Assembly (NCBI GenBank): GCA_016935695.1
Contig: JAFGQL010000011.1
Coordinates: forward strand, 1-64,000
From: Spirochaetales bacterium
GTDB taxonomy: Bacteria > Spirochaetota > Spirochaetia > JC444 > Marispirochaetaceae
DNA: 64,000 nt
Reading direction: 5' to 3'
The position numbers and the translations under genes were made by a program. Positions 32,195 through 57,439 of this stretch are shown here, one piece after another. The number at the start of each line of letters is the position of its first letter. The first letter of the stretch is position 1. The notes under the pieces were generated by a model that did not search any database, had not been told where the DNA came from, and worked only from the letters and a program-made list of their open reading frames with translations.

Positions 32195-32962
32195 TTATGT
32201 TGGTTTCCGGGACATTTTAGCTACAAAATGGTAGGTTTTTCGGTTCTGATACATACCAAGGGACAGCATCAGGGTAAAGGATTCCGGGCCCTCCCGCCTG
32301 TATGACCCATATTGAGGTGAACAGGCAGTGCAATCCTCATCAGTAAAGACAGTTGTGATTCCGGCTTCAGCCAATATATGCCTATTCACTTCTTTCAGAT
32401 CAAGGAACCACTGCCCGTTCACGGATACAGCGGCTTTCGGCCCGAAATCCTCACTGAACGTACAGGCCCGCTTTTCATCCACATTGTAACAACAACGGCC
32501 GATCCCCGGCCCTATAAAAGCAAAGAATTCCCGGGCGGGACAGCCCGACGCATCCCTAAGCAGCTTTAGGCCTTTTACAACAATGCCCGTGCCTTTCCAG
32601 CCCGAGTGGAAAGCGCCAAAACATTTCTGTACGGGATGAAAAATAAACACCGGCAGACAATCTGCCGAGGTAATACCAAGAACGTGGCCGCCTTCACGAT
32701 CGACCACACCGTCAGCCTCGGCGCCATCATGCCACATAGAGGCACTGATCACCTTACGTGAATGGATCTGACGCAGGCTTATCACCGCCGCCGCGTCTAT
32801 ACCAGCCGCGCGGTAGAATTCAGACCGGGAAGGCTCGGCAACCGACCTTCCCATGTTGCCAGCCTTCACATTGGACATATACACGGTAAAATCAGTATCC
32901 GGGAAACAGTAGCGTGAATACAGGTCGGCGGATTTTTTTTCAAAGAAATTTCTTTGTCCCAT
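32195..32962 (-). CDS. pgeF: Multicopper-oxidase-like (PgeF/YfiH, DUF152) purine nucleoside phosphorylase family
   Basis: LGITSADCLPVFI, GAFHSGWKGTGIVVKG, FIGPGIGRCCYNVD. Confidence 0.88.
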   Translation of the reverse strand: MGQRNFFEKKSADLYSRYCFPDTDFTVYMSNVKAGNMGRSVAEPSRSEFYRAAGIDAAAVISLRQIHSRKVISASMWHDGAEADGVVDREGGHVLGITSADCLPVFIFHPVQKCFGAFHSGWKGTGIVVKGLKLLRDASGCPAREFFAFIGPGIGRCCYNVDEKRACTFSEDFGPKAAVSVNGQWFLDLKEVNRHILAEAGITTVFTDEDCTACSPQYGSYRREGPESFTLMLSLGMYQNRKTYHFVAKMSRKPT

Positions 32963-34680
32963 TATCTACCATTCGCGTCTTTTTCTTCAATGTTTTTAAG
33001 ATCATGAAACACACCGATGAAATTCGTCAAATCATCCAGGAGCGCCTTCAAACGGCGGATAAACTGCTGGTTTTCTTTACCGCCTATATAGCCCAGATTG
33101 GAAAGAGTGTCAAAACGCCCACCCTTTTCTCCAAACAAAATGCCATTCAGCACATTTATAAGCAGATGAAAATATGTGGCAGCATCTGTAAGCACCTTGG
33201 CGACGTCCCTGTCAAACCTTCCCAGTACCGATTTTTTTTTGCGTACGGCAAGGGCCTGGGGGATCGGTTCGCGGTCAATCTTTTCAATTTCTGCTCCGTA
33301 ACGGCCGTCTGATCTGAGCATAAGAAAAAGGTTCTGAATCTGTGCCTCCAATGCGCTGCACCCGCTGAACCCTTCAGAGAAATCCTGGGAATTCTGCTCC
33401 TTGTAAAACTCACCGTCTATGAGTATGCGCTTAAGTTGATTATGCATGGAAAGCTGATATTCCCTTTTCAGAAACTCAAGTAAAAAGGCCAGGGTTTTTT
33501 CATAGGCCACAGGTGAACCGAAGGCGGTTTTTGAATAGTAAGGGACCGAAACCACGGAACTCTGATGAATGAGATGAGCTGCTTTGGCCAAAACTTCTTT
33601 TTTCATAAGGCGAAGGAGATACTGCTTCAGGTTCTTTTCCAGCCGGGCCATCCAGAACTGCCGGTATAAAGAAAACCAGTCTTCTCCCGAGGTAATATTT
33701 CTCGGAAAGAAATTCAGGTCATCGGCAATAAGCGCATATATTTTTATAAGAGGAACCTCGGTATTGAAGCTTCGCAGAAAGCCCATCGCTTCCCTGGTCT
33801 TTTCTATCCAGCCCTTCAGATCTGATTCCAGAGGATATTGTTCGTCCTCCATATCCTTAACATGGGCAAAAAGAAACAGCCCCTCAAGGAGCACGACCCT
33901 CGGTCTGTGTTCAAGGCTGAAAATAATATTTATCACATCAAGGAGAACCGGTTGAATAGTCTCAAAGGAGGCGCCTCCGTCCCTGCCTTTTTCTTTCAGC
34001 AGCAAAATACGTTCATAAGGATACAGGGCAAACTCTCTGAGCGCCGACACCACCCTGGCGTGGTAATACATATTCTGTCGGTCAACCGGATCCATTTCTT
34101 CCAGAATCATTTCCAGCGTGTTTTCTATTTCCTGGCGTAGTATGCCCTCTTCCATGGTATTCCTGCGGACGGAGGCCCGTCCGGGATCACATTCAGCGAG
34201 GATACGCTGGGAAAGGGCCGGGGCCTCGATATCTGCCAGAAATGCGTAAAAATCGCCTCTTCCTTTTTGGATCAGCTCCTTGAAAGGCATAATGAACACA
34301 GAGGCCCTGCTTTGAAGTTCTTCTACTTTCCTGAAAAAACCGGGAAGTACTTTCTTGTTTTTATAGTCGATCATGCCCGGTACCGCATCTTCTATCTCCC
34401 GGGCGAAACGTTTGCACACCAGTTCTTCCACAAGAATAAGACGATCTCTGGAGAAAAAAAGCATCTTTATGAAGATAAGGAATTTCTCAAAAACCGAAAG
34501 GTGACTATATATCCGCTCCAGGTTCGGCTGCTCATAATTACGTTCATGAAGGGGCTCAGCGGAATCAACATAGGAGCTCCGGATTTTATCAAGAAGGTCG
34601 ATACGCTCCTCTTTGGATAAGCGGGCGGCAAGATCATCAAAGGTCTGTCCCATAGCCTCTATTGTAGAGTCACTTCTCAT
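32962..34680 (-). CDS. Conserved uncharacterised protein (looks spirochaete-specific)
   Basis: 572-aa continuous ORF with codon-like composition, ATGA-type overlap with pgeF; no recognised domain. Confidence 0.7.
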   Translation of the reverse strand: MRSDSTIEAMGQTFDDLAARLSKEERIDLLDKIRSSYVDSAEPLHERNYEQPNLERIYSHLSVFEKFLIFIKMLFFSRDRLILVEELVCKRFAREIEDAVPGMIDYKNKKVLPGFFRKVEELQSRASVFIMPFKELIQKGRGDFYAFLADIEAPALSQRILAECDPGRASVRRNTMEEGILRQEIENTLEMILEEMDPVDRQNMYYHARVVSALREFALYPYERILLLKEKGRDGGASFETIQPVLLDVINIIFSLEHRPRVVLLEGLFLFAHVKDMEDEQYPLESDLKGWIEKTREAMGFLRSFNTEVPLIKIYALIADDLNFFPRNITSGEDWFSLYRQFWMARLEKNLKQYLLRLMKKEVLAKAAHLIHQSSVVSVPYYSKTAFGSPVAYEKTLAFLLEFLKREYQLSMHNQLKRILIDGEFYKEQNSQDFSEGFSGCSALEAQIQNLFLMLRSDGRYGAEIEKIDREPIPQALAVRKKKSVLGRFDRDVAKVLTDAATYFHLLINVLNGILFGEKGGRFDTLSNLGYIGGKENQQFIRRLKALLDDLTNFIGVFHDLKNIEEKDANGR

Positions 34681-34766: not shown

Positions 34767-34795
34767 TTGACATCGGAACGCAAATCGGACATATT
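34767..34795 (+). promoter_or_regulatory. Promoter of cimA leader transcript
   Basis: TTGACA (34767-34772), N17, CATATT (34790-34795); predicted +1 about 34802. Confidence 0.5.
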
Positions 34796-34803
34796 TTACT
34801 CAA

Positions 34804-34878
34804 ATGAATTGTATGAATGCAATTTCAATGATTATTCTTCCCATTATTATACCCGCTATAAAGAGGTCGGAAGGATAA
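34804..34878 (+). CDS. Ile-rich attenuator leader peptide MNCMNAISMIILPIIIPAIKRSEG
   Basis: 24 codons with 7 Ile, immediately upstream of an intrinsic terminator and cimA; not in ORF track because of size. Confidence 0.75.
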   Translation: MNCMNAISMIILPIIIPAIKRSEG

Positions 34879-34897
34879 CAGTGTCGCCATAGAGCAG

Positions 34898-34931
34898 ACC
34901 GCTCATCCTTCTGGATGAGCGGTTTTTTTTT
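34898..34931 (+). terminator. Intrinsic terminator/attenuator in cimA leader
   Basis: ACCGCTCATCC-TTCT-GGATGAGCGGT, 11-bp perfect stem plus a 9-T run (34923-34931). Confidence 0.9.
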
Positions 34932-34974
34932 GGCAGAAAGAGGAATCTGGACATCACATGAAAAAGGACAGGAT

Positions 34975-36555
34975 ATGAACGCTACAAAAATTGAAATCTA
35001 CGACACTACACTTCGAGACGGGATGCAAGGCATAGAGATCAATTTCACTCTCAAGGACAAACTGGAAATAACCCACAAGCTGGATGATATGGGTATTGAT
35101 TACATAGAAGGCGGCTTTCCGCTGGCAAATGATAAGGAAGAAGCTTTTTTTAACCAGATGAAAAAAGAAACCCTCAGCCATGCAAAACTTGTCGCTTTCG
35201 GATCCACCAGAAAACCCGGCGGGAAAGCACAACAGGATGCCCATATTCAGGCACTGCTGAATGCAGAAACCCAGGCAGTGATCGTGGTCGGAAAAACCTG
35301 GCTTGAGCATGTAGAAAAGGTCCTGGGGACACATCCAGAGGAAAACCTTGAAATGATTCATGACTCAATATCATATCTCAGCGCTGAAGGGCGGGAAGTA
35401 CTTTTTGATCTTGAACACTTTTTTGACGGATTTAAGGATAATACCGATTACGCGCTCAAGGTGCTGCAGACCGCCACAGATGCCGGCGCCAAAACCCTTG
35501 TTCTCTGCGACACCAACGGCGGAACCCTCCCCAATGAAGTTACCACTATAGTAGGAAGCCTCAGCGGCAGGGGACTCGCATCAATCGGCGTTCATTTCCA
35601 CAATGACTGCGGTGTCGCCGTAGCCAATTCCCTCCTGGGTATTTATTCCGGGGCCCTGCAGGTCCAAGGAACCATCAATGGGTGGGGAGAACGCTGCGGC
35701 AACGCAAATCTCTGCGCCATAATCCCGAACATCTGCCTGAAAACAAAAGAGTATACAGCCAATGTCGCGGCCAACCTGTCTCAGCTCACCGCCCTTTCCC
35801 GTTTTGTCGCCGAGAAGGCGAATATCATTCCGGAAAAACGGCAACCCTATGTGGGAGAAGCAGCCTTCAGTCATAAAGCCGGACAGCATGCCGATGTCAT
35901 CGCGAAAGCCCCTCAACTGATGGAGCATATTTCCGGAAGCCTGGTCGGCAACACCCGTCGCATTCTGCTTTCAGAACTGGCCGGAAAATCGACAATTGTG
36001 GAAAAGTTGGAAAAATACGGTACTTTCGATAAAAAAAGCACTCAGGTTGATCAGCTGATCTCCCTGCTGAAAGAGAAGGAAAACGCTGGGTATGAATATG
36101 AAGCAGCGGAAGCGTCCTTTGATTTGTTGATAAGGAAAATTCTCGGTAAATACGTTCCGCTCGTCGAATTGAATAATTACCATTTAGAATCGTTCAAAAC
36201 CGGCAACACCCTGTCCAAGACAGTTGGGCGGCTGTTTCTTACTACATCCGACAATCAGGTGATGGGAGCCGGTGTGGGAGTCGGTCCGGTTGAAACCCTC
36301 GACCAGGCATTAAGGGATGCCGTTAAACCTTTTCACCCGTTTATTGATTCCATAAGCCTCATCGATTACAAGGTACGTGTCCTTAATCCGGAAGAAGCAG
36401 CGGCTTCTAAAGTGCGGGTTTTTATAACCAGTACCGACCATCAATCCAATTCCTGGGACACCGTCGGTGTAAGCGAAAACATTGTTGAAGCATCCTGGGA
36501 AGCAATTGTTGAAAGTTTTGAATATTATTACAACAATTTTGTGATTCCTCAGTAA
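34975..36555 (+). CDS. cimA: (R)-citramalate synthase; start set at MNATKIEIYDTTLRDG
   Basis: IYDTTLRDGMQG, HFHNDCGVAVANSLLG, GWGERCGNANLCAIIPN, SHKAGQHADVI, LeuA-type C-terminal domain. Confidence 0.92.
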   Translation: MNATKIEIYDTTLRDGMQGIEINFTLKDKLEITHKLDDMGIDYIEGGFPLANDKEEAFFNQMKKETLSHAKLVAFGSTRKPGGKAQQDAHIQALLNAETQAVIVVGKTWLEHVEKVLGTHPEENLEMIHDSISYLSAEGREVLFDLEHFFDGFKDNTDYALKVLQTATDAGAKTLVLCDTNGGTLPNEVTTIVGSLSGRGLASIGVHFHNDCGVAVANSLLGIYSGALQVQGTINGWGERCGNANLCAIIPNICLKTKEYTANVAANLSQLTALSRFVAEKANIIPEKRQPYVGEAAFSHKAGQHADVIAKAPQLMEHISGSLVGNTRRILLSELAGKSTIVEKLEKYGTFDKKSTQVDQLISLLKEKENAGYEYEAAEASFDLLIRKILGKYVPLVELNNYHLESFKTGNTLSKTVGRLFLTTSDNQVMGAGVGVGPVETLDQALRDAVKPFHPFIDSISLIDYKVRVLNPEEAAASKVRVFITSTDHQSNSWDTVGVSENIVEASWEAIVESFEYYYNNFVIPQ

Positions 36556-36562
36556 TAGACAA

Positions 36563-36592
36563 AAGCCTCCCGAAACCGGGAGGCTTTTTTTT
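36563..36592. terminator. Bidirectional intrinsic terminator between cimA and carB
   Basis: AAGCCTCCCG-AAAC-CGGGAGGCTT followed by T8; A-run on the other side. Confidence 0.85.
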
Positions 36593-57220: not shown

Positions 57221-57317
57221 ATTTATCCAGTGTACAGGTCGATAATAAGGGTGTCGGCGACCTAATATAGTTCCCCTCCCAGTTTACTATATTTAACCAA
57301 CCGACAACCTAGCTTAA

Positions 57318-57351
57318 GGCCGGTTCCCCGCAAGGGGGATCGGTCTTTTTT
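57318..57351 (+). terminator. Intrinsic terminator after Mla/M23/PEGA operon
   Basis: GGCCGGTTCCCC-GCA-GGGGGATCGGTC-type 12-bp stem (3 G-U) then T-run. Confidence 0.8.
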
Positions 57352-57439
57352 ATGCTATTTTTTTTATTGCGCTGCATCCCCCTCCCTTTACCCCGTGAAA
57401 GGACGAGCCTGGTTCCGCCAGGACCTATAGGTCCATAAC

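Follow-up and report, generated by a model that had tools for sequence, protein, structure and literature searches.

A putative ribosome-mediated attenuator with an isoleucine-rich, apparently near-leaderless leader peptide upstream of citramalate synthase in Spirochaetia

The window analyzed here, a stretch of 64,000 bp of contig JAFGQL010000011.1 from a Spirochaetales bacterium, was found to contain a leader region flanked by a divergently oriented gene encoding a DUF5312 protein (32962–34680, minus strand) and by cimA on the plus strand (Table 1). The product of cimA was confirmed to be a true citramalate synthase, as assigned in a preliminary description of this DNA, and an AGGA-type Shine-Dalgarno sequence is present at its start (34975). 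The spirochaete host was likewise borne out by the relatives of the locus, which carry the names Spirochaetales or Spirochaetia. The gene 3′ of cimA is convergent, located on the minus strand and carbamoyl-phosphate-synthase-like, and cimA appears to be monocistronic in this genome. The hairpin that follows cimA could terminate both cimA and the convergent minus-strand gene. No threonine deaminase was detected above the cut-off in the source genome (82% complete), and CimA is therefore probably the entry point to isoleucine synthesis in this organism.

Table 1. Features of the cimA leader region, with positions in the window.
Feature	Position	Strand	Basis or remark
Sigma-70-type promoter, TTGACA-17-CATATT	34767–34795	+	TTGACA 34767–34772, CATATT 34790–34795; sequence; TTGACA stands in the same place relative to the uORF start in 44 related leaders
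Transcription start, predicted	about 34801–34804	+	from promoter position
Leader peptide uORF, MNCMNAISMIILPIIIPAIKRSEG	34804–34878	+	24 codons, 7 Ile; start 8 nt past the -10 box; no Shine-Dalgarno sequence
Element 1	34832–34841	+	overlaps codons Ile10–Pro13; pairs with 34869–34878 (1:2 hairpin); folding
Element 2, predicted antiterminator strand, uORF tail UCGGAAGGAUAA	34867–34878	+	folding; leader-specific pairing
Terminator 5′ arm	34897–34908	+	12-bp stem
Element 3, partner of element 2	34905–34914	+	takes in the end of the terminator 5′ arm and the loop
Element 4, terminator 3′ arm and T9 tract	34913–34931	+	sequence, folding, covariance model
cimA, citramalate synthase, putatively regulated gene	34975–36555	+	TIGR00977, 602 bits, cut-off 450
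Terminator after cimA	36561–36592	+	T tracts flank the hairpin at either end

The promoter and the Ile-rich uORF upstream of cimA were both recovered as previously described, with Ile at codons 7, 10, 11, 14, 15, 16, and 19 of the uORF. An intrinsic terminator with a T9 tract closely follows the uORF stop, and it cannot belong to the DUF5312 gene because that gene is divergent. The terminator differed slightly from the preliminary description, since the stem comprises 12–13 bp rather than 11 bp, with a 4-nt loop (about 34896–34931), and starts 18–19 nt rather than 20 nt past the stop codon. The hairpin by itself was predicted to have a folding energy of -22.7 kcal/mol, and the cimA leader showed -48.6 kcal/mol compared to -28.6 kcal/mol for shuffled sequences (z -5.0). 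The unmasked leader folded into two main hairpins, one formed by elements 1 and 2 (1:2) and the other being the terminator (3:4). Besides, the 10-bp pairing proposed earlier between 34867–34876 and 34905–34914, including two G-U pairs (2:3), was found to be real; the 1:2 hairpin had been absent from that proposal and completes the set of 1:2, 2:3, and 3:4 pairings. Taken alone, the 2:3 match of this leader was only mildly unusual, being equaled in 4% of shuffles and by 1.6% of the 20-mers in the window, and chance was ruled out by the comparative evidence, not by the match in a single leader.

Relatives were drawn from 60 and 395 Spirochaetia genomes and from 80 named loci. About 48 related Spirochaetia leaders (35 clusters at 60% identity) were found to contain an Ile-rich uORF followed by an intrinsic terminator. 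The Ile leaders precede cimA, leuA-cimA, ilvBN-cimA, or longer ilv-leuA-cimA operons in many families of the class, and the genes found downstream of leaders were cimA, leuA, ilvB, ilvN, and ilvD. The uORF stop lies 15–32 nt from the terminator in the related leaders and the median distance from the last Ile pair to the stop is 11 codons, a geometry in which a stalled ribosome would leave element 2 free. Both the Ile-rich uORF and the competing stems were shown to recur in relatives, and the earlier proposal, which their absence would have contradicted, survives. Some Spirochaetia cimA loci were found without such a leader, at least under the criteria used. The leader, MNGMLNMTTILLSLLXLIIIGGRGVGVGG, with one ambiguous base, was detected in Alkalispirochaeta alkalica DSM 8900 (L077, 4303–4376), upstream of the gene that precedes cimA.

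In a promoter scan of 44 leaders that permitted gaps of 3–25 nt between the -10 box and the uORF start, the -10 box of the best promoter was located 6–10 nt before the start in 38 leaders, compared to 8 nt in the source genome (Table 1). Such a gap implies that transcription of these 38 leaders would begin on the start codon itself or no more than a few bases away, with no room for a Shine-Dalgarno sequence. The leader peptides therefore look leaderless or nearly so, as judged from predicted transcription starts.

The coevolution of the uORF tail and the terminator was analyzed in 35 leaders, each from a different cluster (less than about 60% alike). Pairing of the tail with its own terminator arm showed a mean of -13.6 kcal/mol compared to -11.5 kcal/mol when the arms were swapped (z -5.4, p < 2e-4), and none of 5000 permutations was as good. 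Control segments from further upstream and from the spacer showed no own-arm preference in these 35 leaders, which makes base composition an unlikely cause. An earlier run on 31 leaders, performed without segment controls, gave the same outcome; the own-arm preference of the source cimA leader was slight (rank 12 of 31) and adds little to the coevolution signal. The 1:2 protector hairpin known from classical attenuators was present as well, and across 31 leaders 1:2 pairing exceeded that of shuffles (p 4e-4), being weak in some relatives.

It could be argued that termination in the leader is constitutive, or marks the 3′ end of a separate short RNA, and that the Ile-rich reading frame is open by chance, since a strong terminator does stand there. 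However, among 45 Spirochaetia cimA loci, Ile-rich uORFs before a terminator were found in 22 cases on the coding strand and in none on the opposite strand, with the next residue, Leu, reaching 9 and 1, respectively. The conserved promoter-to-start spacing and the leader-specific pairing of tail and arm also speak against a chance frame, as does the finding that the strong model matches (see below) with examined downstream genes were all located at branched-chain amino-acid operons. This explanation is thus considered very unlikely.

A ribosome covers about 13–15 nt downstream of its A site, and this footprint was assumed when the leader was folded with ribosome-masked RNA, a check suggested in the preliminary description. 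With the RNA 5′ of 34864 removed, corresponding to an A site on Ile16, the 2:3 pairing was 94–95% formed when polymerase was at 34915–34918. With the RNA through 34890 removed, corresponding to a ribosome at the stop codon, the terminator alone could form and 2:3 never did, in agreement with the earlier claim that a ribosome at the UAA (34876–34878) permits termination. Of the stall sites proposed earlier to allow antitermination, Ile14–16 stood, and the range Ile10–16 fits, but Ile19 is unlikely: an A site on this codon would place the ribosome edge near 34872 and hide half of 34867–34876, with 2:3 at most 39% formed, which makes it a poor stall site. Folding thus predicts an antiterminator whose formation is incompatible with the terminator and which a ribosome positioned on the stop codon would hide, and the leader-specific pairing supports it. 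In equilibrium folding, the terminator outcompeted the antiterminator only after polymerase had reached 34921. Because the terminator wins at equilibrium past this position, the modeled switch must be kinetic, with the antiterminator forming before the terminator. The hierarchy of antiterminator and terminator in the E. coli trp leader is likewise kinetic.

The cimA leader is in our opinion very probably a ribosome-mediated transcription attenuator tuned by how much charged tRNA-Ile is available. RNA polymerase would initiate at, or slightly 5′ of, the uORF start codon, with a ribosome trailing it on the near-leaderless message. When Ile is plentiful, the ribosome would reach the UAA at 34876 and mask element 2, so that the 3:4 terminator would form and cimA would be off. 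When Ile is scarce, the ribosome would halt within Ile10–Ile16 and mask element 1; element 2 would then capture element 3 upon its emergence and pre-empt the terminator, and cimA would be on. If the leader were untranslated, the 1:2 hairpin would form and the terminator would prevail. Ribosome stalling, readthrough, and the transcription start are what we infer here from the uORF, the promoter position, the hairpins, the conserved geometry, the leader-specific 2:3 pairing, and the match between residue and pathway, all of which were found by sequence analysis and comparison. Every feature of a classical ribosome-mediated attenuator that can be looked for in a sequence was found in the cimA leader. 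These results support the earlier suggestion of an Ile-sensing attenuator on the citramalate route in a spirochaete, chiefly through the comparison with relatives. Like the 1:2 hairpin, the apparently near-leaderless start, the different operon types, and the Val and Leu leaders described below are additions to that suggestion.

A covariance model of the uORF tail and the terminator, built partly from the Spirochaetia cimA-locus sequences, matched the source leader at 34864–34931 (53.5 bits, E 3.5e-8 for the whole genome). In the search of the class, the matches examined at E below 1e-6 all showed an Ile- or Ile/Leu-rich leader peptide, except for one (L153). The strong matches included three genomes of the same family (G001 to G003), and in G002 the operon behind the leader was shown to be ilvB-ilvN-cimA. 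Below E 1e-4, the model was found at 26 of 45 Spirochaetia cimA loci, a count that is not independent of the model, compared to 0 of 31 loci from other phyla, an absence that speaks only for the sequence family modeled. In a draw of 198 genomes from the phylum, E ≤ 1e-5 was reached in the source genome only, showing a low background; this draw is no survey, since the model misses real divergent leaders such as those of G009 and G034. Most of the examined matches with E above about 1e-5 resembled plain terminators, and a few Val, Leu, or Ile leaders were found among them. Two matches were rejected as attenuators, both having no amino-acid-rich uORF: C155:50470–50567 of the same genome (E 9.5e-4), taken as an ordinary terminator, and 57294–57352 of the window (21 bits), a plain terminator.

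A structured leader with a terminator in front of an Ile gene would look alike if a ligand-binding riboswitch or a T-box sensed Ile or tRNA-Ile directly and the uORF were untranslated. However, no Rfam T-box or riboswitch model matched at the gathering threshold, and a permissive scan of the leader, which gave no T-box match either, remained sub-threshold throughout (best PyrR, 25 bits compared to a cut-off of 54). The Rfam amino-acid leader families were also below threshold, the best leader-type matches being rnk_leader at 22 bits (cut-off of 50) and Phe_leader at 14 bits (cut-off of 55). Furthermore, no aptamer was conserved beyond the tail and the terminator, and what is conserved is an open frame containing Ile codons, together with the spacing between this frame and the terminator. 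Both the riboswitch and the T-box reading were rejected, there being no qualifying match in the gathering and permissive Rfam scans, and direct sensing of this kind is regarded as extremely improbable.

The residue apparently sensed was found to track the pathway, cimA operons being headed by Ile leaders, ilvBN by a Val run where a close cimA match is absent, and leuA by Leu leaders. Val-run leaders (family f29), found in genomes that have no close cimA match, contained nine consecutive Val in genome G124 (L166, G124:C39) and six in genome G036 (L164/L184, G036:C14). The G036 leader is located before ilvBN and is a probable Val attenuator; a search for cimA in G036 gave no match under stringent settings and only weak matches otherwise. 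In the source genome, a Leu-rich ORF, MISENCFYSSQQTFSTILNLVLSLSWLLGNGKAGGAGSA, stands upstream of leuA on contig 74 together with a terminator of its own, an arrangement likely to be a Leu attenuator. This locus (L132, reverse strand, about 1070–1300 of the reverse complement) contains a PRK03739-type leuA, and the Leu-rich ORF lies shortly downstream of a TTGACA promoter. A Leu-run leader peptide, MISMPAKSATFLLLLLPLFL, was also found before leuA in another genome (L173, G071:C137). The ilvB gene of the source genome is located at a contig edge (L129, contig 117, position 122), which hides any leader it may have.

These substitutions also bear on the possibility that it is the peptide that arrests the ribosome, or that the peptide works in trans, regardless of the charging of tRNA-Ile. 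A trans-acting leader peptide, peTrpL, has been published (PMC7298713). However, the spirochaete peptides were shown to vary in sequence apart from the Ile runs and the tail dictated by RNA pairing, and Ile is swapped for Val or Leu where the downstream pathway differs, so that an action of the peptide as such seems hardly credible as the explanation. Codon use in the leaders was also distinctive: at loci with an ATC-preferring cimA (leaders L032–L063), ATT accounted for 49 of 82 Ile codons in the leaders compared to 60 of 371 in cimA. Wobble reading may sharpen stalling at these codons, or the pairing may require U.

The enterobacterial ilv, leu, trp, and his attenuators contain a short ORF rich in the regulated residue, 1:2, 2:3, and 3:4 hairpins, and a U-tract terminator. 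The spirochaete leader resembles them in its residue-rich ORF, alternative hairpins, and U-tract terminator before a biosynthetic gene. Unlike them, it has no Rfam match, appears near-leaderless, and targets citramalate synthase, and its predicted antiterminator strand consists of the final uORF codons themselves. Leaderless leader peptides have been reported for ilvL, leuL, and trpL of Streptomyces lividans (PMC8079986) and for ilvBNC of Corynebacterium glutamicum (PMC11857589). These actinobacterial leaders are similar to the present ones, which look leaderless or nearly so, in having a leader peptide before branched-chain amino-acid genes and alternative hairpins, but they target ilvBNC or leuA instead of cimA, and phylum, peptides, and RNA differ. 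Compared to them, every spirochaete leader collected has a strong U-tract terminator, which was partly a search criterion.

In the literature, which was covered only partly, no published leader-peptide attenuator of a spirochaete or of citramalate synthase was found; a study of leader peptides across phyla including Spirochaetales deals with reinitiation, not with attenuation of the present kind (PMC4833913). We consider it reasonably likely that the leaders form a Spirochaetia-wide, leaderless or near-leaderless attenuator family for branched-chain synthesis, in which the Ile, Val, or Leu sensing codon is swapped to suit the branch, and whose origin was separate from that of the attenuators of Proteobacteria and Actinobacteria. 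With the cimA attenuator, the citramalate route to isoleucine would gain a regulatory logic, in a phylum for which the literature found holds no leader-peptide attenuator, and citramalate synthase would join the targets of attenuation. Leaderless leader peptides, known from Actinobacteria, are indicated in a distant phylum too. The covariance model, together with the rules given here, allows dozens of small leader ORFs to be annotated.

The only earlier spirochaete RNA candidate found before a branched-chain gene is the Leptospira ilvB motif WRC-14-1, a weak riboswitch candidate with seven members, all from Leptospira (PMC8632094). This motif may merit a look for a leader ORF.
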